Assembly (NCBI GenBank): GCA_030835085.1
Contig: JAUQWQ010000187.1
Coordinates: forward strand, 1 to 54,418
Length of the DNA: 54,418 nucleotides
Direction: 5' to 3'
Source of the DNA: Ignavibacteria bacterium
Lineage (GTDB): Bacteria > Bacteroidota > Ignavibacteria > Tepidaquicellales > OLB5
The translations under genes were made by a program, and so were the position numbers. Positions 28,347 to 52,963 of the stretch are shown here, in pieces. The notes beneath the pieces were generated by a model that ran no database searches, was not told the origin of the DNA, and saw nothing but the letters and a program-made list of their open reading frames with translations. Numbering within the stretch: position 1 is the stretch's first letter; every line of letters starts with the position of its first letter.

Positions 28347-28355
28347 CTCACTTAA

Positions 28356-29472: not shown

Positions 29473-30036
29473 TTATATCTTTATCTTCGCCATTTCGGCC
29501 ATCAAAAAATCTTTATTCAAATTGAACGCGGTTCTTAAAAACGGCAGACCCGTTGTACCTTTTGATGCTATCTTCCGGGCTATCGCCAGGGCAATGCCTC
29601 TGCTTTCTGCCCATCTGTCCATCGCTTTTCTTCTGCCCGGTCCACCTGTAATTTTTATCGTATTGCGCAGCGCTTTTATTCTTACGCCGCCTTTTGTTCC
29701 TTCGCGGTTACTGGTCAGCCCCTTTAAGAGCACCCATTTCTGCAGCGGTTCTATCGGCGGGAAGTGCGGCTTGGTTCCTTCATGCCTGCATATCGCATAA
29801 GGCACATTCGCGCCTACACCAACTACGCCAATCATCCTGCCAACTTCTTTGGTCACCGTGTAACGCAGGTTCTTAAGCATTTCCATTGTTGCGTATGCTT
29901 TGCCTTTTCTTATTTCGGCATCTGCGTCGGTCCGGACTTTTTCAAGGAACGTTCTTAATTTCTTATCTATCTCATCTTCCAAAGCTTTTGTAGCCTTGCC
30001 AAGATTCAACTTTATTTGGTCTATTCCTTTTGCCAC
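29473..30036 (-). CDS. HK97 gp10-like head-tail protein
   Basis: A 187-residue protein. The middle part GVGANVPYAICRHEGTKPHF, then PPIEPLQKWV and the C-terminal GTTGLPFLRTAFN match the conserved pattern of HK97 gp10-family neck proteins (VxYAxxxExGT...PFLRPAF). It probably joins the head connector to the tail. A coiled stretch near the N terminus (ALEDEIDKKLRTFLEKVRTD) is usual for the family. Confidence 0.75.
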   Translation of the reverse strand: MAKGIDQIKLNLGKATKALEDEIDKKLRTFLEKVRTDADAEIRKGKAYATMEMLKNLRYTVTKEVGRMIGVVGVGANVPYAICRHEGTKPHFPPIEPLQKWVLLKGLTSNREGTKGGVRIKALRNTIKITGGPGRRKAMDRWAESRGIALAIARKIASKGTTGLPFLRTAFNLNKDFLMAEMAKIKI

Positions 30037-30085
30037 GTTTCACTTTTCATTTTTACTTTTTGCCTTTTCACTTTTGCTTTTTTAC

Positions 30086-30551
30086 TTATTCATCATTATC
30101 CGAATCAATCGCCGCAAAACTTAATCCCGGCGTGATCAATATATCGGGTGAATCATCCGCATCATTATCAACTGTTTTTGCATACGGCTTTAAAAGTTTT
30201 TCTGCCTGTTCTTTATGCCTCTGTATGATGGTGTCAATATCAAGCTCACTTATATTCTCTTTTCTGCCGTCACCAATACCGCGCGCTTTTGTGATCCCGT
30301 CACCGCTGGTTGATATGTTCAGCCCCGGCACCAGGTAGTATAATACAAACCTTGCTTCGGCAGTCTTTATGATCTTGTAATCTTCATCATCAGCGCCTTT
30401 GGCATATATCTCATCATACTTCGCCGTACCGATCCTGTCGATAACATCAGCCTTTGCCTCAGGAAAGAACGGCTCAATTACAGCCTGCTTAACCTTATCG
30501 CCAAGGAGCCCGATCTGCTGCACATCTTCGTATGTTATAAAGTAACTCATT
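30086..30551 (-). CDS. Head-tail connector/adaptor protein (Mu gp36-like)
   Basis: About 154 residues from MSYFITYEDVQQIGLLGDKV. The ATG at 30551 is preferred to the one at 30580 because the extra sequence belongs to the tRNA-like element just upstream. A helical domain with KYDEIYAKGADDEDYKIIKT, then AEARFVLYYLVPGLN, matches DUF1320-type adaptor proteins in layout. It follows the capsid gene and precedes the gp10-like gene, as expected of an adaptor. Confidence 0.65.
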
Positions 30552-30555
30552 TGCT

Positions 30556-30629
30556 GCGGGAGGAAGAATCGAACTTCCACGCTATCCTGTATCTCTACAA
30601 GATCGGGATACCTTATCCCGGTCCCGCAA
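30556..30629 (-). tRNA. tRNA-like 74-mer with an atypical anticodon arm
   Basis: Read on the minus strand, TGCGGGA and TCCCGCA form a perfect 7-bp acceptor stem at the two ends. A D arm (GGGA/TCCC with a GG-containing loop) and a perfect T arm (GGAAG/CTTCC with loop TTCGATT) are in order. The anticodon arm is irregular: the best fold is a 6-bp stem (ATCTTG/CAGGAT) with an 8-base loop TAGAGATA and no U33, so no anticodon can be assigned. The encoded 3' end continues GCAA, not CCA. It fills the gap between the capsid terminator and the connector ATG, which is 4 bases away. It could be a degenerate phage tRNA, a quadruplet-type tRNA, or a tRNA-like RNA element. Confidence 0.5.
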
Positions 30630-30668
30630 TATCACCCGCCGGAGCCAGACTTCCGGCAGGTTAACAAA

Positions 30669-30702
30669 GAAAGGCAAGCCGGAGGCGTTGGCCTGCCTTT
30701 CT
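30669..30702 (-). terminator. Terminator downstream of the capsid gene
   Basis: On the minus strand GAAAGGCAGGCC pairs with GGCTTGCCTTTC around a 10-base loop, followed by TTTGTT. It starts about 22 bases after the capsid stop and precedes the tRNA-like element, probably setting capsid mRNA above the downstream genes. Confidence 0.75.
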
Positions 30703-30724
30703 GATTTAATGATTATTCAAAGAA

Positions 30725-31627
30725 CTAGTTTCTTGTTGCGATAACCAATGACTTCGAGAAGCCATAGTTTGCGTCAAGTTCACTCTTCGGTGTATACTCG
30801 ATGCATCCGCCTTTTTTTCTTTCCTGCACCTGGCGACCGATGTACATATTCAGTCCAAAGCCAAGCGTTAAGTTTTTGGGCGGTGTCAGAACAATCTCTG
30901 TGCTTGGCACAGCAAATAAAGGCCTAACTGCAACGCCGTTTGAAACAAGCGGCTGAGTTGAAAGCATATCGCCAAGACCTGTAGCCTTGCCGGTTAACTC
31001 CCTGCGGTACTTTGTATAATTAGCATGTGAAAGGTAGTACTTCAGGTTCGTAACATCAGCCTTGTATTTATCAGGCAAAGTATCCCACATAAGATCGAGC
31101 ACATCAGTGATCTTATCATCCACAGCAAAGTTTGGTGCTTTGTTGGTATCGGCATCAGCCTTGGCTCTTACTAGATAGCCATCAACAAGCTTGAGGAACG
31201 GGTCAGCCACAAGCGACTTGTCACCATTCCATGCAATATCAATTACGTCACGTTTAAACAAATTCATAAATTTGGAAGTAATTTTTTCTTCCGCATTGCC
31301 TTTAGCAATGTTTTTTCTTAAGAACTTCATTGTTATATCAAACGGCCTTGATACTTCAACAGGGATTAAAGACCTGCGGGGTATCGTAACGTCATTTGAT
31401 GATTCAATATCAGTTCCTTCGTCAACACCCCTGAGGCCCCTTACGTCGGCATCAAGTGCATCTATGTTTAGCTGTGTTACAATATCGGTCTCAACTGTGA
31501 TTTCCTGAAGGAAGTCATCGCTGTCGCTCATTGTGTCGATGAAATCATTCAGTTCCTGCGGGGATACCTGTCCGCCGGTACCGGTTGTGATTGTCTTCAT
31601 CAACTCAAGTATTTCTGTGTTCTGCAT
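30725..31627 (-). CDS. Major capsid protein (HK97 fold, P2-like N terminus)
   Basis: A 300-residue protein with no cysteine-rich or signal features. FLRKNIAKGNAEEKITSKFM, the DGYLVRAKADA segment, KYYLSHANYTKYRRELTGKA and VPSTEIVLTPPKNLTLGFGL match the layout of P2/HK97-type capsid proteins of Mu-like phages. It lies after the protease/scaffold gene, has a clear GGAG site, and is followed by a terminator. The length is normal. Confidence 0.8.
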   Translation of the reverse strand: MQNTEILELMKTITTGTGGQVSPQELNDFIDTMSDSDDFLQEITVETDIVTQLNIDALDADVRGLRGVDEGTDIESSNDVTIPRRSLIPVEVSRPFDITMKFLRKNIAKGNAEEKITSKFMNLFKRDVIDIAWNGDKSLVADPFLKLVDGYLVRAKADADTNKAPNFAVDDKITDVLDLMWDTLPDKYKADVTNLKYYLSHANYTKYRRELTGKATGLGDMLSTQPLVSNGVAVRPLFAVPSTEIVLTPPKNLTLGFGLNMYIGRQVQERKKGGCIEYTPKSELDANYGFSKSLVIATRN

Positions 31628-31689
31628 TTTTGTAATCTCCGTAGGTTATTTTAACCTGTTTGGTTTTTATTTTTTTTACTTATAAAAGC

Positions 31690-32688
31690 TTAGCTTAAAA
31701 ACGGTAAGCTCTTCTTAACAACTTCGGTTTCAGGCTTCGTGTCATCCACCTGCTGGCTGCCCGGACTTGCTTTCTCAAGCTTCTCCTTTGTTTCGGCAAG
31801 CTCATCCTGCACTTTTTTCAAAGCGTCAGCCTGCTCTTTTTTAAGATCTTCAATTGCTTTGTCGTGCGCTTCTTTTGTGATTGTATCCATAGTCGTTTTA
31901 TTTTTTATTTGTTTATTGATTTCTGCCCGTTTACTTTCCGCTGTTCCTGCTGAATCCATCAACGACTGCATTGCATCCATTGCAGCCTGTAACTTCTTCA
32001 TGTTGCTGTCACTTATTACCTCCCATACTGCGGATGATAAAGCATCAGCCATTGTGCGCAGCTGCATCCTGCGGTAAACATCATCGAAACTTTTTACCAC
32101 TTCATTGCTTTCAGCCTGCCCTTCTTCTTCATCAAACCACTTTTCAATTCTCTGCATGAGGCTCGAAAACTTTTTGCCTTTTGCTTTTTCGCTTTTAGCT
32201 TCCCCGGCTCTTTCCGCAAACCCGTACAATGAGTAGCCCGTATAAGTACCATCCTTAACGGATTTCCATATCTCTTCATTTTCGATCTTGGTCACAATAA
32301 ACCATGTGCCGTCAGGCTCACCCTTTAATATGCTGTGCTCACCTTTTATGATGGCGCACTCAACAATTGTCACGCCTTCAACCGGCTCCAGGTTATGCTG
32401 CGTATCAACAGCTTTGGAAGTATTGCTCTTTGCAAGGAAATTATGACAGGCTTTTTCTATCTCTTCAACTGTGGCAAAATCACCATGTGCATCTTCATCA
32501 TTCGGGGCGTAAACAACGCCGTACACCAAATGCTTTTCTTCATCAACCTTGGTTATCTTTACTTCTTTGCGCAGTGTGAATTTATCATCTTCTTTTACAC
32601 CCGCACCCTTGCAGATAACCTGGCGTTTGTTCGCGCCCTTATCAACAAGCGAGATCAGATGTACGTCAATGTTCTTAAGTTCTTTCAT
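31690..32688 (-). CDS. Prohead protease (XkdF-like) fused to a scaffold-like C terminus
   Basis: A 332-residue protein. Residues 1-175 carry the XkdF-type phage serine protease pattern: LISLVDKGANKRQVI, VYGVVYAPNDEDAHGD, the likely catalytic His and Ser in DTQHNLEP and GYSLYGFAE. Residues 175-310 are charged and coiled (KEQADALKKVQDELAETKEK) as in scaffold proteins. It is the first gene of the leftward head operon. Fusion of protease and scaffold in one frame is known in several phages. Confidence 0.8.
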   Translation of the reverse strand: MKELKNIDVHLISLVDKGANKRQVICKGAGVKEDDKFTLRKEVKITKVDEEKHLVYGVVYAPNDEDAHGDFATVEEIEKACHNFLAKSNTSKAVDTQHNLEPVEGVTIVECAIIKGEHSILKGEPDGTWFIVTKIENEEIWKSVKDGTYTGYSLYGFAERAGEAKSEKAKGKKFSSLMQRIEKWFDEEEGQAESNEVVKSFDDVYRRMQLRTMADALSSAVWEVISDSNMKKLQAAMDAMQSLMDSAGTAESKRAEINKQIKNKTTMDTITKEAHDKAIEDLKKEQADALKKVQDELAETKEKLEKASPGSQQVDDTKPETEVVKKSLPFLS

Positions 32689-32744
32689 TACACTTTTACT
32701 TTGCCTTTATTGTTTTCTCTATAATAGAGTTTCAATTTATTGCC

Positions 32745-32752
32745 CAAATATA
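32745..32752 (-). promoter_or_regulatory. Putative -7 element of the leftward late promoter
   Basis: TATATTTG on the minus strand fits the TAnnTTTG consensus and lies about 57 bases before the protease ATG. No TTG is found at the expected -33 place, which would suit a late promoter that needs an activator such as the Mor-like protein at 48137. The 204-base gap to the lipoprotein gene holds only this and a terminator. Confidence 0.45.
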
Positions 32753-32820
32753 AGTGTGTCTATACATGTAATGTTAGCTTGATTTTGCAATCCAAAACAA
32801 AACCGTTCACTTCACCCCAT

Positions 32821-32850
32821 AAAAAAAGCGGCCATCGCTGGTCGCTTTAA
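32821..32850 (-). terminator. Terminator of the repressor/moron transcript
   Basis: On the minus strand AAAGCGACCA pairs with TGGCCGCTTT (one mismatch) around a 4-base loop and runs into seven T. It lies 43 bases after the lipoprotein stop and separates the lysogenic transcript from the late head operon. Confidence 0.8.
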
Positions 32851-32892
32851 AAAACTATCCCCGTGTAAACGGGGATCTCTCATGTCAATTTT

Positions 32893-33360
32893 CTAATCGT
32901 TGTAATCTATAGTATATATTTTAAAATTCCGCAGAGCAATAAACTGCCCCGCAGTTAAACCGAAATCATACAAGTTCCATGCAATCCCAGGTCCCGTTCC
33001 CCAGCTCCTACTGTCCAGGATAAATTCATAATTCCCGTTGGTACTATCACTACCCTGATGTGTTTTATAAAAGTAAATCGTATCACCTGCTAAATTGTAA
33101 AGTGAATAACCGAATACTGTACTGTCTGTACTGCTCGTTAAAGTGTAAGTGATCTTGTATCCCTCATCCCTTGTCAAGCTTCCCGATAATTGACCGCCGG
33201 TAGTATCACCATCAACTGAATCATCGTCAATACTATAAACCATAGCGCCAATAGTATAATTCGGATTCCCCGTATTATTATTTGTAACATTATCATCACC
33301 GCACCCGGCAGAAAATAATGCAAACAGCATCACACTTAAAATTACTATTGTTGTTTTCAT
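32893..33360 (-). CDS. Lipoprotein near the repressor (moron candidate)
   Basis: About 155 residues from the ATG at 33360 (MKTTIVILSVMLFALFSAGC), with the lipobox FSAGC giving a lipidated cysteine at about residue 20. The mature part is Asp/Thr/Ser-rich (DDDSVDGDTTGGQLSG) with beta structure. It follows the small membrane protein at 33387 and comes from the lysogenic side. Lipoproteins in this place often give superinfection exclusion or change the lysogen surface; that is only an inference here. Confidence 0.6.
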   Translation of the reverse strand: MKTTIVILSVMLFALFSAGCGDDNVTNNNTGNPNYTIGAMVYSIDDDSVDGDTTGGQLSGSLTRDEGYKITYTLTSSTDSTVFGYSLYNLAGDTIYFYKTHQGSDSTNGNYEFILDSRSWGTGPGIAWNLYDFGLTAGQFIALRNFKIYTIDYND

Positions 33361-33386
33361 ATTTTTATTTTTAATTTTTATTCTAT

Positions 33387-33884
33387 TCAATCAACTGTTT
33401 CCATACTTATTACATCGCCATCATCGGAAACCAGAAATAAAACCGTGCTTATTACATATCCGCCGAAACCATTCTTCGCCCTGTACTTATGCCGCACTAA
33501 ATAATTTCCATTCTTTCCCTGTACCGGTTTGCTCCATTCAATTGATTCGTAACTATCCGGATCCCTTATCCTGTCCATTAAATAAGTTTTGCATTGCTTG
33601 ACTGAACCATCCCACTCTGAATTTTTCACGCTGCCGCTGTCATCACCTTTGAAAACCGCAAGCACTATGAACATAAAAATAATTACTCCAATACTACCCG
33701 CTACTATCCACCCGAAATTCTTTTTTTTCCTTTTTTCAATTTCATTCCTGCGTTTAATATCCTGTTCAAAAAACTCTTTGTAATACTCAACATCATGTAC
33801 GTAAAAATATCTTGCATGGTCATAATAAGATTTGGCGTCTGTTTGTTTCAGCCGCTCTATTTGTTCTCTGGTAAGTTTTTCCAT
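33387..33884 (-). CDS. Single-span membrane protein (moron candidate)
   Basis: A 165-residue protein with a very strong AAGGAGG site. Residues 1-55 are charged (LTREQIERLKQTDAKSYYDH), a membrane segment follows (GWIVAGSIGVIIFMFIVLAV), then a domain of about 80 residues (CKTYLMDRIRDPDSYESIEW, HKYRAKNGFGGYV). It resembles small host proteins of the DUF with RDPDSYE motifs. Transcribed together with the repressor, so it may act in the lysogen. Confidence 0.55.
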   Translation of the reverse strand: MEKLTREQIERLKQTDAKSYYDHARYFYVHDVEYYKEFFEQDIKRRNEIEKRKKKNFGWIVAGSIGVIIFMFIVLAVFKGDDSGSVKNSEWDGSVKQCKTYLMDRIRDPDSYESIEWSKPVQGKNGNYLVRHKYRAKNGFGGYVISTVLFLVSDDGDVISMETVD

Positions 33885-40503: not shown

Positions 40504-40518
40504 AGAAAGGAATTTATA

Positions 40519-40959
40519 ATGCAGGAATCAAAAGCTACAATTAACGTTGATGGAATCGAATATATCCGCAAGGATTTAGCGCCTGTTGATAACAGGCCGG
40601 TCACTGAACGCATAAAAACATACGAAGATGCGTACTGTGCTTTAGGCAGCCCGGCATTTATCAGCTTAGATGATACATTCCAGGATGATCGCGCCAAGTC
40701 AATCATTGCTTACTCTAAGCTTCTGGTAATTGCCGAGGCATTGAATGAAGGATGGAAGCCGGACTGGACTAATAGCAGCGAATACAAATATTATCCCTGG
40801 TTTAAAAAGAACACCTCGGGCTCCGGCTTGTCGTGCTTCGGCTACGCTAGCTGGTGTGCGCGTTCGTTTGTGCCGGCTCGCCTTTGCTTTAAATCTTCTG
40901 AGCTCGCTGAATATGCAGGAAAGCAGTTCATAGATCTGTATTCTGAATACATGCTTTAA
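40519..40959 (+). CDS. DGR target protein 1
   Basis: A 146-residue protein with an AAAGAAAGGAA site ahead of ATG. Layout: a basic/acidic N-terminal helix pair (RIKTYEDAYCALGSPAF, KSIIAYSKLLVIAEALNEGW), a conserved SSEYKYYPWF segment, the variable repeat (about residues 100-123), and a conserved end LCFKSSELAEYAGKQFIDLY. The same frame parts occur in target 3. Similar proteins are, from memory, common as hypothetical proteins in Bacteroidota phages. The variable part SCFGYASWCARSF sits between fixed SGSGL and VPARLC, as in lectin-like DGR targets such as Mtd. Binding of diverse ligands is inferred. Confidence 0.85.
   Translation: MQESKATINVDGIEYIRKDLAPVDNRPVTERIKTYEDAYCALGSPAFISLDDTFQDDRAKSIIAYSKLLVIAEALNEGWKPDWTNSSEYKYYPWFKKNTSGSGLSCFGYASWCARSFVPARLCFKSSELAEYAGKQFIDLYSEYML
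40815..40887 (+). repeat. DGR variable repeat VR1
   Basis: 73 bases aligned without gaps to the template repeat 44180-44252. 17 of 19 template adenines are replaced and none of the 54 other bases, the signature of adenine mutagenesis by a DGR reverse transcriptase. Confidence 0.96.
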
Positions 40960-41019
40960 ATAATTTACCAACTTTCCGCAGCTTGCGCTGCACCAAGTCA
41001 GGAAGAAAGGATATAAATA

Positions 41020-41385
41020 ATGGAAGATGGATTATTTCCTCAAAAGGAGCCAAACTACAAACCTCATCTCAGACAGTCAGGCGTCATTACTGACTTCAAA
41101 ACATTCGAGAAGTCACTGCAGGAATTACGTTTCTGCAAAAATAAACTTGCCGAGTTGAGAGTCAAAAAAGGCAGAGCCATACAAATTGCCGTAGAGCCGT
41201 TTATTTCTGAAGAAAAGCTGCTTGTAAAACAGGTCGAAGATATGCAGGGTAACATCGATGTATACCTTAACCTCAACATGGAAGAGCAGGCGGAGCTCAT
41301 CAGCAAACTGCCAGATGTCAAGATCGAAGAAATACATAAATTCAAAATTAAATTTACAAAGGAGAATAAAAAAAATGCCGCTTAA
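41020..41385 (+). CDS. Helical early protein, Gam-like position
   Basis: A 121-residue protein, mostly helical and charged (TFEKSLQELRFCKNKLAELR, EEKLLVKQVEDMQGNIDVYL). It lies before a DUF3164-type gene. Helical shape and size would also fit a DGR accessory protein (Avd), but no Avd motif can be named. Gene order in Mu relatives suggests a nucleic acid-binding role. Overlaps the next gene by 11 bases. Confidence 0.45.
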   Translation: MEDGLFPQKEPNYKPHLRQSGVITDFKTFEKSLQELRFCKNKLAELRVKKGRAIQIAVEPFISEEKLLVKQVEDMQGNIDVYLNLNMEEQAELISKLPDVKIEEIHKFKIKFTKENKKNAA

Positions 41386-41989
41386 AGATGAACAGGGTAA
41401 CTGGCTAAACCGCAACGGCAGACCGATACCCGAAGCAAATATAGATCCCATTGCAAAACGCAGGGATGAAGCCGTTTCCAGAATGGTGGCTAAAGCCTTA
41501 AAGCTGGAAGCCGAAATGAAAAAAGTCAAAGAAGAAATTCTCGCTGAAGTTATGCAGTATATTGGCCACCTGCAGAAATTAAACGGAATAAAAAAACAGG
41601 CTACCAAGGGTAATTACACCTTGTCTGACTACGCGAATCTGCAGCAGGTTCAGGTTTCAATGAGCAATGTGATTGAATTCGATGAACGCCTTAATTTGGC
41701 GAAAACGCTTATCGATAAGTGCCTTATTAAATGGACCAAGCGCGGCAACCAGAATGTAAGAGCCATTATTACCGATGCGTTTGATGTTGATAAAAAGGGC
41801 AATGTTAATAAAATGCGCATTATAGGTTTGCTCGCACTGCAGATCTCCGATAAAGAATGGAAGCAGGCAATGGAACTGATACGCTCAAGCATGCAGGTAT
41901 CCGACACAAGACAGTATCTAAACATAAGAACCCGCAAAAACGTTATTAATAAATGGGAATTTGTAAACTTAAACTTTTCAAGCCTGTAA
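41375..41989 (+). CDS. DUF3164-family phage protein
   Basis: 204 residues from the ATG at 41375, chosen for its AAAGGAG site; a longer frame upstream is not needed. DEQGNWLNRNGRPIPEANID at the start and AIITDAFDVDKKGNVNKMRI followed by ILGLL-type sequence and the final VSDTRQYLNIRTR match the DUF3164 family of Mu-like phages. Function unknown; members lie in the early region near host-nuclease inhibitors. Confidence 0.8.
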   Translation: MPLKDEQGNWLNRNGRPIPEANIDPIAKRRDEAVSRMVAKALKLEAEMKKVKEEILAEVMQYIGHLQKLNGIKKQATKGNYTLSDYANLQQVQVSMSNVIEFDERLNLAKTLIDKCLIKWTKRGNQNVRAIITDAFDVDKKGNVNKMRIIGLLALQISDKEWKQAMELIRSSMQVSDTRQYLNIRTRKNVINKWEFVNLNFSSL

Positions 41990-41991
41990 AT

Positions 41992-42579
41992 ATGAGCGAC
42001 AAAACCACAGACTGGATCCAAACATATACCGGCAAAAAGTTCTACCCGCTTGAGCCCGATATTGAAGATATTAATATCGCCGATATTGCCAAAGCTCTCT
42101 CGCACATTTGCCGGTTCAACGGTCACTGTGACCGCTTCTACAGCGTGGCGGAACATTCCCTAGGATGCCTGGGTATCGCAAGGCGTATGGGTTTGAGTTA
42201 TCAGGACCGCTACGCAGCCCTCATGCATGATGCTGCGGAAGCTTATCTTTCTGATGTAGTTAGACCTGTAAAAAGATTTCTGCAGGGTTACTCGTTTTAC
42301 GAGTACCGGCTTGAAGAACTTATCGCAAAAAAGTATGGGTTGATCTTTCCGTTCAGCCAGGTGGTGATCAAAATTGATAACATCATGCTTGCAACCGAGC
42401 GGAGAGATCTTTTTCACAACCCGCACCCATGGGGCAGTCTTACAGAAGAGCCGACAGACATATTCAATGTATCTAAGCCCATAGCTCACGGTGCAATAAA
42501 TATTATGCAGGCTTTCCTGGCTGAATTTATGAACCTGCGCAAAGCGCTCAGACTGCCGGTGAACCATGAAGATCTCTGA
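41992..42579 (+). CDS. HD-domain phosphohydrolase (YfbR-like 5'-nucleotidase)
   Basis: 195 residues from MSDKTTDWIQTYTGKKFYPL (ATG 41992; the 13 residues before are from the upstream gene). HD-type ligands are visible in GHCDRFYSVAEHS and LMHDAAEAYLSDVVRPVK, plus a later Asp in IKIDNIMLATERRD. Related proteins remove phosphate from deoxynucleoside monophosphates; a phage one could tune nucleotide pools for replication or for reverse transcription by the DGR (the latter is speculation). Confidence 0.8.
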   Translation: MSDKTTDWIQTYTGKKFYPLEPDIEDINIADIAKALSHICRFNGHCDRFYSVAEHSLGCLGIARRMGLSYQDRYAALMHDAAEAYLSDVVRPVKRFLQGYSFYEYRLEELIAKKYGLIFPFSQVVIKIDNIMLATERRDLFHNPHPWGSLTEEPTDIFNVSKPIAHGAINIMQAFLAEFMNLRKALRLPVNHEDL

Positions 42580-42739
42580 TACTGCCGATAATATGTTTAA
42601 GGATATGCTGAATATTGATGGCAAGGAAATTGTCTCAATAACATTCGCAGGCATTACATGGAAGATGCAGCTTTCATCACTAATAAAAATATTTGAATAT
42701 GCAAACAAATACTTTGAATCAAACAAACCGCAAAGCTAG
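42566..42739 (+). CDS. 57-residue protein
   Basis: Starts 14 bases before the end of the HD gene (MKISDTADNMFKDMLNIDGK) and is open to the TAG at 42737-42739, overlapping the next gene. Pattern with FAGITWKMQLSSLIKIFEYA is a plausible small domain. No family. Confidence 0.5.
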   Translation: MKISDTADNMFKDMLNIDGKEIVSITFAGITWKMQLSSLIKIFEYANKYFESNKPQS

Positions 42740-43028
42740 AGCCGGCTATTACAGTGAGGTCACCCGCGATAATGCATTCGCATTATCAATGGATTCGCAC
42801 CAGCCGCAAAAGCTTCGCATATATGCACTGCTCTCAAGGTACGGCAAATTTACAAGGCACCAAATATCCAAGCTTTTGAAAATGCCATTGCACACAGTCT
42901 GCGCCAGAGTAAATGGTTTAATGAAAGATGGACTCGTAATTGATACACAGGAAGAAGAAATGAATATCCAAACAAACACACCAAACAACCTGGTAAAAGC
43001 GGTTGTGAAACAACCGGAATTATTCTAA
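42699..43028 (+). CDS. Winged-helix DNA-binding protein
   Basis: About 109 residues from ATG 42699 (a TTG at 42693 adds two). RIYALLSRYGKFTRHQISKL and the following LKMPLHTVCARVNGLMKDG make a winged helix of the kind seen in phage regulators of cell-state genes. A short repeat occurs at both ends (MQTNTLNQTN and IQTNTPNN). Overlaps the 57-residue gene. May regulate middle genes, including the DGR cluster that follows. Confidence 0.65.
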   Translation: MQTNTLNQTNRKARAGYYSEVTRDNAFALSMDSHQPQKLRIYALLSRYGKFTRHQISKLLKMPLHTVCARVNGLMKDGLVIDTQEEEMNIQTNTPNNLVKAVVKQPELF

Positions 43029-43276
43029 GAACATAAAAACAGCAAATGTCAATATTGCAAACACAAGTTTCCCCGGGTTGCGGGCTGGATTAGAGATGTC
43101 ATTTGGAAACATCTTCGAACGCTTCCTCCCGCTGCGCCCCCGCCGTTCCCAAGGATACCTACTCACGGCAGCGCATTTAAGGGCAAAAGTGGCCCGCGTA
43201 ATTATAATAACACTTAAGGGAGCGATTCCAAAATTTTTGAGAATAAACTGCAGCAAACCAAAGAAAGGAATTAACC
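43029..43276. other. Gap of 248 bases ahead of DGR target 2
   Basis: No convincing gene. A plus-strand frame from TTG 43078 (RPRRSQGYLLTAAHLRAKVA) runs into target 2, and a minus-strand frame covers the same DNA. Base composition is GC-richer than the neighbours (CCCGCTGCGCCCCCGCCG). It may be a remnant of another element or hold regulatory RNA. The last bases carry the AAAGAAAGGAATT ribosome site of target 2. Confidence 0.35.
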
Positions 43277-43669
43277 ATGAAACAAACTGAGACAAAACGG
43301 GTAACATTTGATTACCCTGCAGCATTAAAGCTTTACACTGATTTCTGCACCGAAAATAATATGGAAGTCAAGCTCCCATATCCTGAACCGGCAACCGAAG
43401 ATGAAATGAATACCAATGCATTTGTAATGGTAAAGAACATCAAGCTTGCAGGTAATAAAGGCGAAGTACCGAATCCGCTTGATACCAATCTGTCCAAATA
43501 TTACCCATGGTTTGTACCATCAGACTCGGGCTCCGGCTTGTCGTACGACGACTTCGGGTACTGGTGTACGTATTCGGATGTGCCGGCTCGCCTTTGCAGT
43601 TTAGATTCTGATAATGTAGAACCGGATGCAGAGAAGTATCAGCCAATTTACGATATTTTACAAAGCTAA
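43277..43669 (+). CDS. DGR target protein 2
   Basis: A 130-residue protein with the AAAGAAAGGAATTAACC site, like that of target 1. Its N-terminal part (FDYPAALKLYTDFCTENNME) is unlike targets 1 and 3, but LSKYYPWF just before the variable repeat and VPARLC after it are the same. The variable part reads SYDDFGYWCTYSD. The end (SLDSDNVEPDAEKYQPIYDI) differs from SELAEYAGKQF of target 1. So the variable module has been placed on a different N-terminal scaffold. Confidence 0.8.
   Translation: MKQTETKRVTFDYPAALKLYTDFCTENNMEVKLPYPEPATEDEMNTNAFVMVKNIKLAGNKGEVPNPLDTNLSKYYPWFVPSDSGSGLSYDDFGYWCTYSDVPARLCSLDSDNVEPDAEKYQPIYDILQS
43525..43597 (+). repeat. DGR variable repeat VR2
   Basis: 73 bases aligned to the template. 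12 of 19 template adenines are replaced, and there is one change elsewhere (template T at its position 34, read as G). Confidence 0.95.
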
Positions 43670-43681
43670 ATTTAAAACAAA

Positions 43682-44143
43682 ATGAAAAAGAAATCACAGA
43701 AGTTTCTATCACTCTGTAAAGAGTACGACGTAAGTCCCGACAATGTTCGGGAAGTATTAAGCGTTAAACAGGCATTCAAGATTCGCGGCGTTGATATTCT
43801 GAAAATGCCAGGCGTTTCAAAGCTGCCTAAAAGATTCAGGCTCTGGCTTGAATGGCTTTATAAAATGGCCGTTGTTGCGGAAGCTTTCAATACAGACGAA
43901 AGCGGAAAGCTTTGGATCCCGAATTACAACGATTCCAATGAGTATAAATATGAGATCTGGTGGGATGTAAAAGCTGATTCTAAACACACCTCGGGCTCCG
44001 GCTTGTCGTGCGACGGCTGCGTTGGCTGGAGTGCGGCTTCGGATGTGCCGGCTCGCCTTTGCTTTAAAAATCGGGATACGGCGATTTTTGTTGGTAAGCA
44101 TTTTGCCAAAGAATTCAAATATGTTCAGCTTCATTTTGAATAA
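43682..44143 (+). CDS. DGR target protein 3
   Basis: A 153-residue protein. N-terminal helices (KSQKFLSLCKEYDVSPDNVR, WLEWLYKMAVVAEAFNTDES), a segment DSNEYKYEIWW like SSEYKYYPWF of target 1, then the variable repeat reading SCDGCVGWSAASD between SGSGL and VPARLC, and an end with LCFKNRDTAIFVGKHFAKEF parallel to LCFKSSELAEYAGKQF. It is the nearest target to the template (117 bases from end of VR3 to the template start). Confidence 0.85.
   Translation: MKKKSQKFLSLCKEYDVSPDNVREVLSVKQAFKIRGVDILKMPGVSKLPKRFRLWLEWLYKMAVVAEAFNTDESGKLWIPNYNDSNEYKYEIWWDVKADSKHTSGSGLSCDGCVGWSAASDVPARLCFKNRDTAIFVGKHFAKEFKYVQLHFE
43990..44062 (+). repeat. DGR variable repeat VR3
   Basis: 73 bases aligned to the template. 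16 of 19 template adenines are replaced, no other change. Compared with VR1 and VR2 the replaced bases differ at the inner positions, so the three have diversified independently. Confidence 0.96.
44066..44089 (+). other. Hairpin just downstream of VR3
   Basis: AAAAATCG (44066-44073) and CGATTTTT (44082-44089) form a perfect 8-bp stem with an 8-base loop, starting 4 bases after VR3. Hairpin or cruciform structures at this place increase mutagenic retrohoming in known DGRs. No comparable stem was seen after VR1 or VR2. Confidence 0.55.
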
Positions 44144-44362
44144 GATTTAAAGGTTGTGTTCTCAAGATAGCTGTAGTTCCTCGGGCTCCAGCTTGTCGTA
44201 CAACGACTACGATAACTGGAATACGAATTCGAATGTGCCAGCTCACCTATGCAGAAGTAAAACACTGAGAACAAACCCTGCCTCTTGGCAAAAGATTACG
44301 CTTCAAACACAAAGGGCGCTGGTACCGCAAGAGAACGCGACCTTTAGACCAAGCAAAGCACA
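44144..44362 (+). ncRNA. DGR template RNA region (TR plus spacer)
   Basis: The region between target 3 and the reverse transcriptase. It contains the template repeat (44180-44252) and a 110-base spacer that in known systems takes part in priming cDNA synthesis. An open frame runs through it (from ATG 44154 into the RT start), because the template keeps the reading frame of the targets, but it is most likely untranslated template RNA. Confidence 0.8.
44180..44252 (+). repeat. DGR template repeat TR
   Basis: 73 bases with 19 adenines. In the reading frame of the targets the inner part is rich in AAC/AAT codons (YNDYDNWNTNSN), and none of the codons can mutate at A to a stop. The fixed Trp codon TGG splits the variable block. 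Confidence 0.96.
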
Positions 44363-45316
44363 ATGAAAAGAATAAACAATCTATACAGTAAAATTTGCAG
44401 CATTGAAAACCTGAACCTGGCTGATGAAAAAGCCAGGAAGGGCAAGGCATACCAGTATGGTGTGATGCAGCATGATAAAAACAGGGAATTCAATATCCTG
44501 AAGCTGCGGCAAATGCTGCTTGTTAAATCATATCGCACTTCGGCATACAAGAAATTCACCATACACGATCCCAAAGAGCGTGAAATATTCTGCCTGCCGT
44601 ATTACCCGGACAGGATCGTTCATCATGCTATTATGAATATTCTTGAACCTGTATTCATATCAAAATTTACGGCTGATACATACAGCTGTATAAAAGGCAA
44701 AGGAATTCACGGTGCTTTGCGGAATATAAAATCAGCATTGCGCGATAAGCCAAATACTCAATACTGCTTAAAGCTGGATATTCAGAAATTTTATCCAAGT
44801 ATAGATCATGATATTTTAAAACAATTATTGCGCAGGATCATAAAAGATACTGACCTGCTGGCATTGCTTTATGAGATTATTGAGAGCGCAGCCGGTGTAC
44901 CAATTGGCAATTATCTGAGCCAGTACTTTGCCAACTTCTATATGGCATACTTTGATCACTGGATAAAGGAAGCGAAGCGGGTAAAGTATTATTTCAGATA
45001 TGCGGATGATTTGGTGATATTCTCAGGCAGCAAAGAGTACCTGCATGAGCTTCTGGCTGAGATCCGCGCATATCTAACCAATAATTTAAAGCTGACCGTT
45101 AAAAACAATTACCAGATTTTCCCCGTTGCGGCCAGAGGTCTTGATTTTGTTGGTTACAGGTTCTTTCATGCCCACATCTTGTTAAGGAAAAGAATCAAAA
45201 AAAGATTTATCCGTATGCTGAAAAACAGAAGGAATGACAAATCAATTGCTTCGTATTATGGCTGGATCAAACATTGCAACGGTAAACATTTATTAAAAAA
45301 ACTATTACATGAATGA
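44363..45316 (+). CDS. DGR reverse transcriptase
   Basis: A 317-residue retron/group II-like RT without extra domains. Visible motifs: LPYYPDRIVHHAIMNILEPV, the catalytic Asp in CLKLDIQKFYPSID, PIGNYLSQYFANFYM (the SQ motif usual in DGR RTs), YFRYADDLVIFS with the YADD pair, and ARGLDFVGYRFF. It copies template RNA with errors at adenine; the cDNA then replaces variable repeats. It lies 110 bases after the template. A four-base overlap joins it to the next gene. Confidence 0.94.
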   Translation: MKRINNLYSKICSIENLNLADEKARKGKAYQYGVMQHDKNREFNILKLRQMLLVKSYRTSAYKKFTIHDPKEREIFCLPYYPDRIVHHAIMNILEPVFISKFTADTYSCIKGKGIHGALRNIKSALRDKPNTQYCLKLDIQKFYPSIDHDILKQLLRRIIKDTDLLALLYEIIESAAGVPIGNYLSQYFANFYMAYFDHWIKEAKRVKYYFRYADDLVIFSGSKEYLHELLAEIRAYLTNNLKLTVKNNYQIFPVAARGLDFVGYRFFHAHILLRKRIKKRFIRMLKNRRNDKSIASYYGWIKHCNGKHLLKKLLHE

Positions 45317-45612
45317 AAAATTTTAAAGACTTCGGTATCAAAGCTGAGACAACAAGTTTCACCGGTGACAAGATCAAGATCAAACGCATCATTGATAAAG
45401 AAATAACAGTACTTAATTACAGGATCGAAGATTCAGTTTATGGCGATGGCAAAAAGTGCCTGCATCTGCAGATCGAATTTGACAATGAAAAAAGAGTAGT
45501 ATTTGTAGGTTCAGTTGTATTAATAAGCATGATACAATCCGTGCCAAGAGAAACGGGCTTTCCATTCAAAACAAAGATCATCAATAATGATGGCCGGTAT
45601 GAATTTAGTTAA
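45313..45612 (+). CDS. Small protein coupled to the DGR reverse transcriptase
   Basis: A 99-residue protein; its ATG overlaps the RT stop (ATGA), so it is translated with the RT. Beta-rich pattern with TVLNYRIEDSVYGDGKKCLH, VVFVGSVVLISMI and FPFKTKIINNDGRYEF reminds of an OB-fold or similar nucleic acid-binding domain. No Avd gene was found, so this is the best candidate for a DGR accessory protein; it might equally be an independent phage protein. Confidence 0.55.
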   Translation: MKNFKDFGIKAETTSFTGDKIKIKRIIDKEITVLNYRIEDSVYGDGKKCLHLQIEFDNEKRVVFVGSVVLISMIQSVPRETGFPFKTKIINNDGRYEFS

Positions 45613-45637: not shown

Positions 45638-47446
45638 ATGATAGAAGTAATTGACTTATTTTGTGGTGCAGGTGGCGTGACTACCGGTATAGAAAAAGCG
45701 AGATACAAAGGTCTGAAATGCGCGAAAGTAATAGCCTGTATAAATCATGATCCCGTTGCGATAGCTTCTCATGAAGCTAATCACAAAGGCGTGCTGCACT
45801 TCACCGAGGATATAAAGACATTTGATGTTACAAAATTTCCTACTTGGTCTTCTGATGCAATAAAAATATTATGGGCTTCGCTTGAATGCACTAATTTTTC
45901 AAATGCAAAAGGCGGCTTGCCCCGTGATGCCGATAGCCGTACGCTTGCGGAACATTTATTCAGATACATCAAACACCTCAAGCCTGATTATATTCTCATT
46001 GAAAATGTTCGTGAGTTTATGTCGTGGGGTCCGCTGGATAAGCAGGGCAAGCCCATTTCAAAAGATAAAGGTATAGACTATACCAAATGGATAAAAAAGG
46101 TTATGCGTTATGGCTACAAATATGAACATCGCATTTTGAATTGCGCTGATTATGGCGCCCACACTTCACGCAAGCGATTGTTTATCTGCTTCGCTAAAGA
46201 TACATTGCCCGTTATATTTCCGCTGCCAACTCATGCAAAAAAGGCAGGCCGTGGTTTTAAGAAATGGAAAGCTGTTAAGCAGGTTCTGGATTTTACCGAT
46301 GAAGGCGAAAGCATTTTTACCCGCAAAAAACCCCTGTCAGAAAAAACACTTGAAAGAATTTATGCAGGGCTGGTTAAGTATGTTGCCAACGGCGATAATA
46401 AATGGATAGTCAAATATAATTCTGCTTGCAACAATACCTCTGTAAATAAAGGCTCCTCCGTCAATGAACCATCGCCTACAATTACCACAATGCCGGGTGT
46501 TGGTGTCGCATCAGTTGATAAAGCTTTTATCCTGAAATACAACTCAACCAATCAAGATACAGGCAAACATATTCCGCCCAGCATCGAAGATCCTGCTCCC
46601 GTCATAAGCACTCAGGTACGCATGGGCTTAGTAAATGTTAACAAAGCTTTCCTGGCACAGTATAATTCAGGCAGCGATAAGAATAGGGTCACCGGCATTG
46701 ATGAACCATGTAACGTCATTCCAACCAATAATCGTTTTGCATTAGTGCAGCCCCAGTTTCTTATTAAGTATCATAAAACAGGAAAGAATATAAGCAGTGT
46801 TGAAGAACCAAGCAGCACCATCACCACAAAAGACAGACAGGCTTTAATTCGTCCAAAATTTTTCATAGATGAGCAGTACACAAACAGCAAACCCGTAAGT
46901 GTTGAAAATCCGTCTAATGCAATTCTCGGTAACCCAAAACAGAAGCTTGTGCAGGTTGACCAGGCATTTATGCTTGATACTAATTTTAACAATACCGCCA
47001 ATTCAGTCGATTCCCCTGCACCCTCATTACTTGCATCACGCCATCACCGCTACTTGGTAAATCCGCAGTGGTTCAGCGAAGCCGCATACAGCGTTGATGA
47101 CCCATGCTTCACTCTCATTGCACGCATGGATAAAGCTCCACCGTATCTGGTGCAAACTGAAACCGGTGAAACTGTAATTGAAATATATGAAGATGATTCA
47201 GAGTGTACAAAAAGAATAAAACTTTTTATGGCGGCTTATGGCATAATTAATATAAAGCTGCGTATGCTTCGCATTCATGAACTGCTGGCCATTACAGGTT
47301 TACCCAAAAGATACAAACTCAAAGGCAATCAGTCAGATCAGAAGAAATTCATCGGCAACGCAGTGCCGCCAATTGTTCCGCAAAGATGGATTGAAGCAAT
47401 GTATCCTCTTTTACAACAATACAGGGAGTTAAAATATGCAGCCTGA
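45638..47446 (+). CDS. DNA cytosine-5 methyltransferase with repeated recognition region
   Basis: A 602-residue protein. C5-methylase motifs: DLFCGAGGVTTGIEKA (I), ASLECTNFSNAKGG (IV, with EC where PC is usual), IENVREFMSW (VI), HTSRKRLFICF (VIII) and, near the end, ITGLPKRYKLKG and IGNAVPP (IX/X). Between VIII and IX, residues about 250-505 hold about seven copies of a 33-40 residue unit (FLxxYNS ... SVxxPxxTIxTxxRxALVxxx). No restriction enzyme is beside it, so it likely protects phage DNA or marks sites. The missing proline of PC is unusual though the catalytic Cys remains. Confidence 0.85.
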   Translation: MIEVIDLFCGAGGVTTGIEKARYKGLKCAKVIACINHDPVAIASHEANHKGVLHFTEDIKTFDVTKFPTWSSDAIKILWASLECTNFSNAKGGLPRDADSRTLAEHLFRYIKHLKPDYILIENVREFMSWGPLDKQGKPISKDKGIDYTKWIKKVMRYGYKYEHRILNCADYGAHTSRKRLFICFAKDTLPVIFPLPTHAKKAGRGFKKWKAVKQVLDFTDEGESIFTRKKPLSEKTLERIYAGLVKYVANGDNKWIVKYNSACNNTSVNKGSSVNEPSPTITTMPGVGVASVDKAFILKYNSTNQDTGKHIPPSIEDPAPVISTQVRMGLVNVNKAFLAQYNSGSDKNRVTGIDEPCNVIPTNNRFALVQPQFLIKYHKTGKNISSVEEPSSTITTKDRQALIRPKFFIDEQYTNSKPVSVENPSNAILGNPKQKLVQVDQAFMLDTNFNNTANSVDSPAPSLLASRHHRYLVNPQWFSEAAYSVDDPCFTLIARMDKAPPYLVQTETGETVIEIYEDDSECTKRIKLFMAAYGIINIKLRMLRIHELLAITGLPKRYKLKGNQSDQKKFIGNAVPPIVPQRWIEAMYPLLQQYRELKYAA

Positions 47447-48842: not shown

Positions 48843-49087
48843 TGGAAATAATAGCAATTATCAATATTTTCCTGTTCATGGTTTTGTTAATTTTCTGCCT
48901 CGCGGCTTTACTGTATTTTAAAACCATTCCGCTTGATAAGCTGAAACAGGCAGCGCAAAAAGATGACGTATTATTTACAACGTCAAACATGAACAACTAT
49001 AAAGTTGGCGAGATATACAGTAAGCACTTAATAACGCGTATCGAAAAAGGGTTTTATTATTTTATAATTTACGGCAAGCCTCTTTAA
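48842..49087 (+). CDS. Small membrane protein between terminase genes
   Basis: An 81-residue protein with one N-terminal membrane segment (IINIFLFMVLLIFCLAALLY) and a small basic domain (YSKHLITRIEKGFYYFIIYG). Both ends overlap neighbours by one base (TAATG). Unknown function. Confidence 0.55.
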   Translation: MEIIAIINIFLFMVLLIFCLAALLYFKTIPLDKLKQAAQKDDVLFTTSNMNNYKVGEIYSKHLITRIEKGFYYFIIYGKPL

Positions 49088-50592
49088 TGATCACTCCGAG
49101 CCAATTTAAGAAATCATATCAGGAACTGCTTGACTTCATATGCGCAGGTGTTCCGGTATTTGGTGATAACGATCCCGTAAAACAGCGCGAAAGAGTAGCT
49201 GCTTGCAAAACCAATAAGCTCCTTTATGCGCAGACTTACTTTCCGCATTACTGCGAAAATGAATTTGCACCCATGCACGCCGATATGCTTAAGACTGCTT
49301 CAACAACAGGCATAGGCGTTTTGCTTTATGGCTTCCGCGGCTGCGGTAAATCTTCGCTTATCAGTTTGATCGATGTATGCCATGATATTTGTTATAATAC
49401 TTTTCGCTTTATTGGCTTTATCTCAGCATCAGAAGATAATGCATCTGAATACACGCTCCCTATCAAAGCGGAGCTCGAAGCCAATGCCAGGATAATAAAT
49501 GATTTTGGTGCCCTGTTGGAAGGCGCATCTAAAAAACGTGATACTGATTTTGTTACCAAAAATGGCGTGCGCGTACTGGGTCTGGGTCCCAAGATGTCAC
49601 CGAAAGGCAGAAGAAATGTACAGTACCGCTTCGACAAGATCATAGTTGAAGATATTGAAAGCCGTACAACACCAAACAGCCCGCGCGTCATCAAAAAAAT
49701 TATTAACTTCCTGCTGAAAGATGCATACAAGGCAATGAACCCCAACCATTTCAGCTTCTTATTCCTGGGTAACTACTTCAGTAAAAAATCCATACTGCAT
49801 AAACTGCTTACACATAATGAATGCAAACACTGGGTCAAGCGCGGCTATCCTGCGCTGGTTGATGACTCAAAAGGAAATTTAATTTCAGCATGGCCGCAAA
49901 GATTCCCGACCGCCAAGCTGCTGGATGACCTTGAAAAAATGCCGGATACTGAGCGCGTTGAAATGATGCAGAAACCCGAAGATGAAGATTCATATTTTAA
50001 CATGGATTGGTTTAGGCGCATCGATCCCCGTGATGTACCCGCGGGTGTAAAGACTGTTACCTATTGCGATCCCGCAGTAGGCGAAACCAAAAAACAATGC
50101 TTTCAGGCTCTTGTTGCTGTTTCGCTTCATGAAGTGAAGGATGAAAATAATGTCAGAACTGACTACAAGTATTATGTTCAGTTTTCATCGCTCCGCCGTG
50201 AGCCAAAGTCCGCAATGGTCAAACGTCACTTTGAAATTTCATCAGATTACGATTCAACCCATGATTGTGTTGAAGCATTTGGTTATCAGGAAACATTGAA
50301 AGATGATTACCAGCAGGAAGAAGTACGGCAGGGCAGGCGTCTTAATTTGCATATGGATAGGAATTCCCGCAGTAAAGAAACAAGGATTGAAAGCCTGCAG
50401 TCACCAATACTCCGCGGCAAGATCGTATTTGTGGAGCATGTTGGCTTAAATGCTTTGCTGGAGCAGTTCAACGATTACCCCGACGGGTTTGTAGATGGTC
50501 CGGATGCCATCGCATGCGCTATTGATTTTATCAATGCTAAGATTTTAAAAATTACCAAGAAAATTGGTTCAAGGATATTAGGTGGTTCATGA
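49087..50592 (+). CDS. Terminase large subunit
   Basis: A 501-residue protein. ATPase half: Walker A YGFRGCGKSSL, Walker B-like KIIVEDIESR; nuclease half: TYCDPAVGETKK (first Asp), and an Asp/Glu set toward DGPDAIACAIDF. Cuts and translocates phage DNA into heads; Mu-type terminases package by headful from the ends. It overlaps the portal gene by 4 bases. Confidence 0.88.
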   Translation: MITPSQFKKSYQELLDFICAGVPVFGDNDPVKQRERVAACKTNKLLYAQTYFPHYCENEFAPMHADMLKTASTTGIGVLLYGFRGCGKSSLISLIDVCHDICYNTFRFIGFISASEDNASEYTLPIKAELEANARIINDFGALLEGASKKRDTDFVTKNGVRVLGLGPKMSPKGRRNVQYRFDKIIVEDIESRTTPNSPRVIKKIINFLLKDAYKAMNPNHFSFLFLGNYFSKKSILHKLLTHNECKHWVKRGYPALVDDSKGNLISAWPQRFPTAKLLDDLEKMPDTERVEMMQKPEDEDSYFNMDWFRRIDPRDVPAGVKTVTYCDPAVGETKKQCFQALVAVSLHEVKDENNVRTDYKYYVQFSSLRREPKSAMVKRHFEISSDYDSTHDCVEAFGYQETLKDDYQQEEVRQGRRLNLHMDRNSRSKETRIESLQSPILRGKIVFVEHVGLNALLEQFNDYPDGFVDGPDAIACAIDFINAKILKITKKIGSRILGGS

Positions 50593-52034
50593 ATACAACC
50601 GTTAAAAAAGTAACCGCGGGTAAAGATAACATACACATCCACATTCATATGGATGAGGTACCGCAGTTTGCTAAAAATAAGAAGTTCCATGTTAAGCCGG
50701 GTAAGGTCACATCAAAATATGAATCATCTGTATTTGTTCCTGGTGTGAATTTCAATCAATCCGCCGCAGCTGCTGCTGCAGGCGATAGTAAATCCCGCAT
50801 ATCAAAAGCTTCATCACAGAAAGAGCAGAGCCAGTTTGAACAGTCAATTACTCCGCCCGTTGATCCTAAAACGCTGGTTGAAATGCGCGGATGGAATGCC
50901 TTTCATGATAGATCTATCAGGCTTAAAACAATTGCCACTGTTTACCAGGGCTACGATATACGGCCAAACGATGAAAAGGATAATGATACATATCAGGATC
51001 TTCCCAACTACCAAAAGCTTAAAGCTTTTCTGGATTCACCAAACCAGGCAGGCGAAGATTTCATTGATATACTTTATGGCTTCGGTGATGACTACTACAC
51101 AAACCGCTATGCTTACCTGGAGTGCGTCAGTAATTCCAAAGGTGAGCTTGCCGAAATATACAATCTCCGCGCTCCATCAGTCCGGGTGAAAAAAGAACGC
51201 GGCAATATTTTCTTCATTCAGAAGGATGGCTCAGCTGAGCAGAAATTTGCATTATATAATTTCAACCGCGCGAAGCGTCACAAAGAACTGAATGAAGTTC
51301 TGTGGCTTAGGGATTATTATTCCTTATCCCGCTATTATGCCGTACCTGATTATTACGGTGCTGTTGCAGATATTACTCTTGACCGCTCCAGCGTTGAATA
51401 TAACATCAGCCGCTTTAAAAATGGTTTGATGGTTGATTTTATTATTGTTGTTGAAGGCGGCGAAGTCGATTCAAAAGTACTTGAAGATATTAACAGCTTC
51501 CTTTCTAAAAATTATAAAGGCGTGCTGAATGCAGGCAAAGCTTTATACCTGAATTCAGATGATCCGAATGTGAAGATCCGCATTGAAAAGGTATCAGCTG
51601 AGATCAAAGATGCAAGCTTCCTCAAACAGCGTGAATTCTCACGCGAGGTTGTGATGGTGGCACACGGTATGAATGCAAAAATATGGGGTCTTGCCACAGC
51701 CGGGCAGCTTGGCTCAGGTGAAGGTGATATGATGTTCCGCTTATTCGAGGAAATGATCGGCAAGCCTGACCGTCAGAAATTCGAGCGCAAAATTAACAAG
51801 CTGATTAAGTATGGTTTACTCATTGATGACCTGCACCTTGAATTACGCTCCATGACTATCGAAGCATTCAAAGACCTGGTTGCCGGGCTTGCATTAGCGC
51901 CATACATTACAGATGATGAAAAGCGCATTGCTACAGGTTATGCGCCTCTTGGTGAAGAAGCAGCACGGCCAACCGAACAGCTGGCAAAAGTGCACCGCGA
52001 ATTATTGAATATTAAGAAACAATTAACTGCATAA
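50589..52034 (+). CDS. Portal protein (DUF935, Mu gp29-like)
   Basis: A 481-residue protein. An N-terminal extension with a beta segment, an Ala-rich linker (AAAAAAGDSKSR) and then the DUF935 core: WNAFHDRSIRLKTIATVYQG, DEDPTQAGEDFI-type region QAGEDFIDILYGFGDDYYTN, and FVEEMIGKPDR-type helix FEEMIGKPDRQKFERKINKL. Forms the dodecameric portal ring through which DNA enters. The N-terminal 90 residues (beginning DNIHIHIHMDEVPQFAK) are longer than in Mu. Confidence 0.82.
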   Translation: MNTTVKKVTAGKDNIHIHIHMDEVPQFAKNKKFHVKPGKVTSKYESSVFVPGVNFNQSAAAAAAGDSKSRISKASSQKEQSQFEQSITPPVDPKTLVEMRGWNAFHDRSIRLKTIATVYQGYDIRPNDEKDNDTYQDLPNYQKLKAFLDSPNQAGEDFIDILYGFGDDYYTNRYAYLECVSNSKGELAEIYNLRAPSVRVKKERGNIFFIQKDGSAEQKFALYNFNRAKRHKELNEVLWLRDYYSLSRYYAVPDYYGAVADITLDRSSVEYNISRFKNGLMVDFIIVVEGGEVDSKVLEDINSFLSKNYKGVLNAGKALYLNSDDPNVKIRIEKVSAEIKDASFLKQREFSREVVMVAHGMNAKIWGLATAGQLGSGEGDMMFRLFEEMIGKPDRQKFERKINKLIKYGLLIDDLHLELRSMTIEAFKDLVAGLALAPYITDDEKRIATGYAPLGEEAARPTEQLAKVHRELLNIKKQLTA

Positions 52035-52963
52035 TGAATACTTATCAGACACATTTGGACGAGTTAAGAATAAAGCAAATGATAGCTGATGTTGAAAATA
52101 TGCAGTTGATTGTTTTACTGAAAGATGATAAGGCTTACAACAAGCTTCTCAACAAGCTGCGCGATGCGATCGCCACCGCATATGATGAAGTGACCCGTGC
52201 TGCACTCAAAGAGTGCGTTGAATATCTGGTGAATAAAGGCAGCGCATCTTTCCTGCCCGGCGATGCAACCGCAATTGATGAAATACTGCAGAAGAAACTA
52301 GGCAAGGATTTTGAATCTGTTGTAACCGATGATATAAATAAGCTCACTCAGGATATTTTAAAGCTTGGAAAGGTCGAAGTTTTAAAGCCCATCGGCATGA
52401 AATTATCCTTTGATGTGAAAGATGTTGAAGCATCTAAAATACTTGCTGAGCAAAATCTGTTCTGGGTTGGCGGCCATTACAATGAAAACCTGAAGAAAAA
52501 ATTTGATGAGCTTACAGCCGGTTATTTTGATAGCGATAAAACCATCGAGCAGATTGCTGATGATTTTGAAAAGAACTTCGGCAAATTAACAGAGCAGGGC
52601 CAGCAGTATTTTTACGATCTTGCTGAGCATCAAACCAACACAGTCCGTGAGCTTGGCAAGGTAAACGGATTCGAGCAGGCAGGCGTGCGGTATTATGAAA
52701 TACGCGCCATTATTGATGATCGCACCAGTGAGATTTGCCAGCGCATGAACGGGACCATCTTCCCTGTTGAGCGCGCAGTCGAATATCGTGATAATATTCT
52801 CAGCCTCAAAGATCCCGAAGCCATTAAAGAAGCTTCGCCCTGGTTATCTCCGGAGGAAGTAAATGTACTGCCATCTGATGATGGCGAGCTTCCGCCCGGT
52901 CTATCATTGCCGCCGTATCATTTCCGCTGCCGCACAATATGCGTCGCCTACTTTGAACAATAA
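52034..52963 (+). CDS. Mu F-like minor head/morphogenesis protein
   Basis: A 309-residue protein. The C-terminal part YEIRAIIDDRTSEICQRMNG, followed by PPGLSLPPYHFRCRTICVAY, is the Phage_Mu_F signature (SPP1 gp7-like). The N-terminal 200 residues are helical. It overlaps the portal stop by one base (TAATG). It closes the rightward arm; in Mu the protease and capsid would follow here but they lie on the other arm. Confidence 0.87.
   Translation: MNTYQTHLDELRIKQMIADVENMQLIVLLKDDKAYNKLLNKLRDAIATAYDEVTRAALKECVEYLVNKGSASFLPGDATAIDEILQKKLGKDFESVVTDDINKLTQDILKLGKVEVLKPIGMKLSFDVKDVEASKILAEQNLFWVGGHYNENLKKKFDELTAGYFDSDKTIEQIADDFEKNFGKLTEQGQQYFYDLAEHQTNTVRELGKVNGFEQAGVRYYEIRAIIDDRTSEICQRMNGTIFPVERAVEYRDNILSLKDPEAIKEASPWLSPEEVNVLPSDDGELPPGLSLPPYHFRCRTICVAYFEQ

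Follow-up and report, generated by a model that had tools for sequence, protein, structure and literature searches.

The question raised by this locus is whether a single template can keep three genes of one prophage variable, and what the varied proteins would serve. The DNA analysed, called the window here, is a stretch of 54,418 nucleotides from an Ignavibacteria bacterium. A sequence-only reading had described in it a diversity-generating retroelement (DGR) of a Mu-like prophage, with one template repeat (TR), a reverse transcriptase (RT) and three variable repeats (VRs) in three small genes. Judged from sequence, it is very probable that this is indeed the DGR of a Mu-like prophage, in which one TR is copied with adenine errors into three small targets. 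The Mu-like assignment holds, as genes for MuA (phrog_310, 1e-51), MuB (phrog_296, 3e-31), DUF3164 and, weakly, GemA were found. The minus strand carries protease, capsid and endolysin genes (15470-33884), while terminase, portal and head genes lie on the plus strand past the DGR (49087-52963) and a DNA methyltransferase gene lies directly 3' of the cassette (45638-47446). The features of the cassette are collected in Table 1.

Table 1. Features of the DGR cassette in the window.
Feature	Position	Strand	Details
Target gene 1	40519-40959	+	146 aa; phrog_11581; between MuB and DUF3164
VR1	40815-40887	+	ungapped TR copy; repeat finder and base count
Target gene 2	43277-43669	+	130 aa; ORF list and VR comparison
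VR2	43525-43597	+	ungapped TR copy; sole non-A change opposite TR T44213
Target gene 3	43682-44143	+	153 aa; ORF list and VR comparison
VR3	43990-44062	+	ungapped TR copy; repeat finder and base count
P1 stem, 5' arm	44152-44164	+	covariation; long-range stem enclosing the TR
TR	44180-44252	+	73 nt, 19 A; diversified adenines between 44200 and 44233
P1 stem, 3' arm	44266-44277	+	covariation
Structured spacer RNA	44274-44362	+	between TR and RT; hairpin 44279-44290, stem 44313-44343; RT-17-like, below cut-off
DGR RT	44363-45316	+	317 aa; PF00078, RYADD, GNYLSQ
OB-fold accessory protein (predicted)	45313-45612	+	99 aa; overlaps the RT gene by 4 nt (ATGA)

Recomputation returned exactly the repeat coordinates and the change counts claimed for each VR. 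Compared with the TR position by position, VR1, VR2 and VR3 have 17, 12 and 16 of the 19 adenines replaced, and 0, 1 and 0 of the 54 other bases. Of the mismatches, 17 of 17, 12 of 13 and 16 of 16 thus fall on adenine, a bias expected by chance with p = 1e-14, 3e-8 and 2e-13, respectively (hypergeometric). No further TR or VR copy beyond these four was found in the 4.05-Mb genome, which is 99% complete. Additional sub-threshold "VRs" from the repeat scan, with 3-6 adenine changes, resemble VR-VR matches and were left out of the target count.

Counting over all 19 adenines, as had been done earlier, gives correct numbers but mixes 15 diversified adenines with four fixed ones. A44190, A44240, A44245 and A44249 are replaced by G, G, G and T in each of the three VRs of the window, and the same four replacements recur in all three VRs of G012, a prophage from the same genus; both TRs retain A. 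Because the replacements are identical in six VRs of two prophages, these outer sites are read as fixed differences and not as diversification, and they place the limits of the exchange between TR positions 11 and 21 on the 5' side and between positions 54 and 61 on the 3' side. In sequence they behave like the fixed differences of an IMH/IMH* pair, the three 3' replacements forming the IMH/IMH*-like feature. Stem-loops like those of BPP-1 were also sought after the VRs; a hairpin follows VR3 only, in the window and in a relative, without a general signal, so that the IMH function is here a putative one. The diversified set therefore consists of 15 inner adenines, of which 13, 8 and 12 are changed in VR1, VR2 and VR3. 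Diversification over these sites could give each target 4^15 = 1.07e9 DNA variants, in none of which a stop codon arises, and 777.6 million different proteins, in agreement with the earlier estimate of about 1.07 and 0.78 billion.

The YADD and SQ motifs reported for the RT are present within RYADD and GNYLSQ, and its PF00078 match is the only one in the host genome. Its best match among solved structures is 8ub7 (3e-63), which we take to be the BPP-1 DGR RT complex, followed at a distance by group II intron RTs (2e-26). A tree of 120 RTs, made by a quick method and containing several long branches, splits the DGR RTs from the group II-like RTs with a support of 99. The window RT falls with the DGR RTs of BPP-1, ANMV-1, LMMB and Versailles, deep among RTs of Bacteroidota phages and prophages. 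By this placement it belongs to the DGR clade, which bears out the original interpretation.

All three targets of the window are also present in G012, whose TR departs from that of the window only at positions 1 and 4 (71 of 73 identical), while DNA identity to the window is about 80% over the target-RT block and 65-82% over most aligned blocks. The VRs of the two prophages differ at inner adenines and, besides these, only at TR positions 1 and 34. Target 1 has moved, being located between MuB and DUF3164 in the window and upstream of MuA in G012, and has nevertheless kept a VR of the same TR. The slot of target 1 (window 40504-41019) was compared with L079:12409-13208 and L079:6114-6563; the G012 slot holds two other ORFs.

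Variation between nearly identical copies was seen in six IMG/VR metagenome contigs of one related element (L005-L010), whose RT is 68% identical to that of the window. The contigs are 99.1-99.99% identical to one another, and the complete ones have one TR and three VRs. Between L008 and L010, 12 of 45 template-adenine sites differ, all 12 within one VR, against none of the 130 other VR sites, none of the 90 TR sites and one of the 6596 remaining sites (p = 2e-26). When all pairs are pooled, each of the three VRs varies, mainly at template-adenine sites, and the TR is invariant; the exception is L007, with two or three VR differences at non-adenine template positions. The same bias appears in a pair from cultured species of Elizabethkingia, with differences at 23 of 40 VR-adenine sites and at none of the 211 remaining VR and TR sites, as well as in the pair L161/L162 (15 of 30 against 0 of 10671 other sites). 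Four near-identical contigs of a further element (L034, L035, L038 and L039) yielded no VR differences, which implies that diversification is not constant. The adenine-tied variation sought in related genomes is thus largely there, in G012 and in L005-L010, and the proposal that all three targets are active and served by one template receives comparative, rather than direct, support from these relatives.

The template transcript appears to be a structured RNA. From 59 aligned TR-spacer regions a consensus of 22 base pairs was obtained, comprising P1 (11 pairs, with arms flanking the TR), a small hairpin and the spacer stem. Both sides change in 19 of the 22 pairs, and 97.5% of the cells are paired. 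None of 500 shuffles equalled this covariation, and versions of the alignment slid out of register, the control that covers kinship as the shuffles do not, had at most 46.5% of cells paired. As judged from its sequence, the covarying RNA is intact in the window. A pairing of the 3' end of the TR (GUGCCAGC) with the spacer (GCUGGUAC), suggested by the window's own fold, was rejected because covariation assigns that spacer arm to its own stem. Fold energy alone was likewise dropped as evidence, since the z of -3.5 in the window stands against a median of about -0.5 over 105 loci. Inspection of the alignment shows, at 44320-44337 in the spacer stem, an invariant GUA facing a near-invariant GAA, reminiscent of a loop E (bulged-G) motif.

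A model of the spacer only (R1) has a match immediately before the RT in almost all loci outside its training set, including crAssphage LMMB, and also matches cr55_1; BPP-1, group II controls and Hankyphage gave no match. The spacer (44274-44377) aligns over the full length of the Rfam model RF03020 (RT-17) at 28.1 bits, below the cut-off of 40.4, and two related loci, L013 and L140, exceed this cut-off just upstream of their RT. These matches suggest that the RT-17-like RNA, at least here, forms the spacer in the template transcript of a DGR. The P1 stem falls mostly outside the RT-17 match.

The gene overlapping the 3' end of the RT gene is predicted to encode an OB-fold nucleic-acid-binding protein. 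Its structural model (pLDDT 89) matches RuvB-like domain II, SSB and PriB over 65-69 residues with moderate Z scores of 5.7-6.9. A profile of this protein was found in 120 loci, including some overlapping fetches and near-copies, and also behind the RT of the archaeal virus ANMV-1. In L012, L013, L046, L115 and L174:38743-40047 the OB domain is fused to the C-terminus of the RT, and residues 327-422 of the Hankyphage RT are an OB-type domain by profile (3e-13). Among annotated phages, plain tblastn for the OB gene was negative and the profile positive for ANMV-1 and the Hankyphage RT. The profile matches, ANMV-1 and the fusions together indicate that these RTs are regularly accompanied by an OB domain, which may hold the cDNA or the template RNA. 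A bAvd protein is required by the BPP-1 DGR. No bAvd (PF22296) was found in the tested neighbours, the 33 related records or the window's own genome, the genome-wide search having been run without a positive control; the BPP-1 Avd itself matches PF22296. In Hankyphage, the small ORF that follows the RT matches DUF4376 and not bAvd.

The element might have decayed, its VRs being now-fixed relics of former retrohoming, as the single non-adenine change in VR2 and the identical VRs of some relatives (the four contigs mentioned above) could indicate. The RT, target and OB genes are all open, the covarying RNA is preserved, and the TR of G012 is nearly the same despite flanks of about 80% identity while the VRs differ at inner adenines, which together make decay improbable. 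There is an equally low probability that just one or two targets still receive copies of the template and the remaining one is a passive relic: target 1 sits 2.7 kb off and has moved between relatives, and VR2 has fewer changes, but all three G012 VRs, the distant one included, differ from those of the window at inner adenines, and all three vary in L005-L010. The mutual homology of the targets would also be expected if the repeats had arisen by gene duplication with ordinary diversifying selection or recombination and without reverse transcription. This origin can practically be dismissed, given an adjacent RT of the DGR clade and differences confined almost solely to template adenines, even between near-identical contigs.

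The cassette is a member of a common DGR type of Bacteroidota phages. Two VRs are present in most of the 127 related loci that have an RT. Three VRs with at least seven adenine changes each occur in about a dozen elements that are distinct from one another; the raw count was 25, inflated by near-copies and by some VR-VR matches that are spurious. The genes typically follow the order of two or three small targets, the TR, the RT and the OB gene, and 34 of the 47 viral contigs recovered with target 1 alone carry the phrog_1423 RT. From these counts it follows that several targets per template are the rule in this group.

The three targets are homologous to one another, and their family members are mostly 120-200 aa long. 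They had no notable match among Pfam and NCBIfam models, no PDB match for their fold was obtained with Foldseek, VIA or sequence comparison, the fold matches were confined to uncharacterised viral proteins, and their sequence relatives include phage proteins that are likewise uncharacterised (phrog_11581). Examined for a C-type lectin fold around the VR, the AF2 model of target 1 (pLDDT 81, but low inside the VR) had no PDB match. In the window and in five sampled loci (L021, L022, L026, L094 and L096), the neighbours of the targets are genes for a MuB-like ATPase, DUF3164/phrog_846, RecT-like or SbcC-like proteins or helicases, and tail genes are not adjacent. Gene position thus suggests that the targets are early, non-tail proteins.

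The opposing view is that the targets are receptor-binding proteins associated with the virion or tail, so that the DGR would serve ordinary tropism switching. The viral targets of three DGR clades are mostly annotated as tail proteins (PMC8144416), a homologue in Bacteroides phage Versailles is labelled "tail protein", and the VR end is common to the Hankyphage target. This is rather unlikely in view of the gene neighbourhoods just described, the length of the proteins, mostly 120-200 aa, and the lack of a membrane stretch in the three targets of the window. In Versailles, moreover, the gene of the target family sits between recombination and replication genes, and the single TR also matches a separate tail protein beside the RT. 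The corresponding Versailles coordinates are L166:5863-6444 and L168:2919-3239, the two genes lying far apart. Tentatively, and with a confidence slightly below even, it is proposed that the window represents a DGR type widespread among phages, in which an OB-fold domain takes the place of bAvd, a P1-closed TR is followed by an RT-17-like spacer, and one template diversifies two or three small, early, non-virion proteins for hypervariable recognition inside the infected cell and not for switching of tail tropism.

In the DGR of the window, the transcript of TR and spacer would fold so that P1 brackets the TR and the structured spacer recruits the RT, probably together with the OB-fold partner. 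The RT would copy the TR, erring at adenines, and the cDNA would replace the matching stretch in any of the three targets, with the exchange ending inside the fixed flanks. As the TR and the outer VR bases remain unchanged, repeated rounds are possible. The products would be early, non-tail binding proteins. We infer in this scheme the retrohoming chemistry, the role of the OB-fold protein and the activity of the window's copy.

The BPP-1 DGR resembles that of the window in its adenine-limited TR/VR pair, the position of the TR beside the RT and a homologous RT. It differs in having a bAvd gene, one tail-protein target and no R1 spacer match, where the window has an OB-fold partner, no detected bAvd and three small targets in the early region. 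Hankyphage p00, a Bacteroides phage whose DGR is active in culture (PMC12135933), is likewise Mu-like and has the OB-type domain at the C-terminus of its RT; unlike the window, it has a single VR of 116 nt, located in a 2245-aa protein of the tail region, and again no R1 match. Quimbyvirus offers an earlier example of a phage DGR with a non-structural target: of its two targets, one is encoded away from the structural module, close to a methyltransferase and other conflict-related genes (PMC8008677). The likeness is one of position, and Quimbyvirus differs in its frameshifted RT and in having one target near tail genes.

DGRs with several targets are already known, including those with a single TR: according to the available part of the MetaCSST survey, 28.6% of 948 DGRs have multiple VRs and 79.9% of these a single TR (PMC6642488). 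That part of the survey does not describe the target family or the accessory protein of the window. New here are a target family that has neither a Pfam model nor a PDB match and lies among early DNA-metabolism genes, an OB-fold protein whose gene overlaps that of the RT, with bAvd not found, and a strongly covarying template RNA in which a TR-enclosing stem is followed by an RT-17-like spacer. No paper joining a DGR with an OB-fold protein or with RT-17 was found in the open-access literature, subscription journals lying mostly outside the search.

The locus offers a system for asking how phages use hypervariable proteins that are seemingly not tail fibres, and what replaces Avd in DGRs without it. 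It also assigns a likely role, as part of a DGR template transcript, to RNAs resembling the RT-associated family RT-17, and the service of several targets by one template may help the design of protein-diversification tools. Homologues of target 1 also occur on contigs without the phrog_1423 RT (L056, L057, L060 and L061; records G095, G096, G099 and G100, 16-78 kb). Incompleteness of the contigs could account for this, as could relic genes or service in trans; an Ala/Ser/Tyr/Asn-rich stretch is still present at their VR site.
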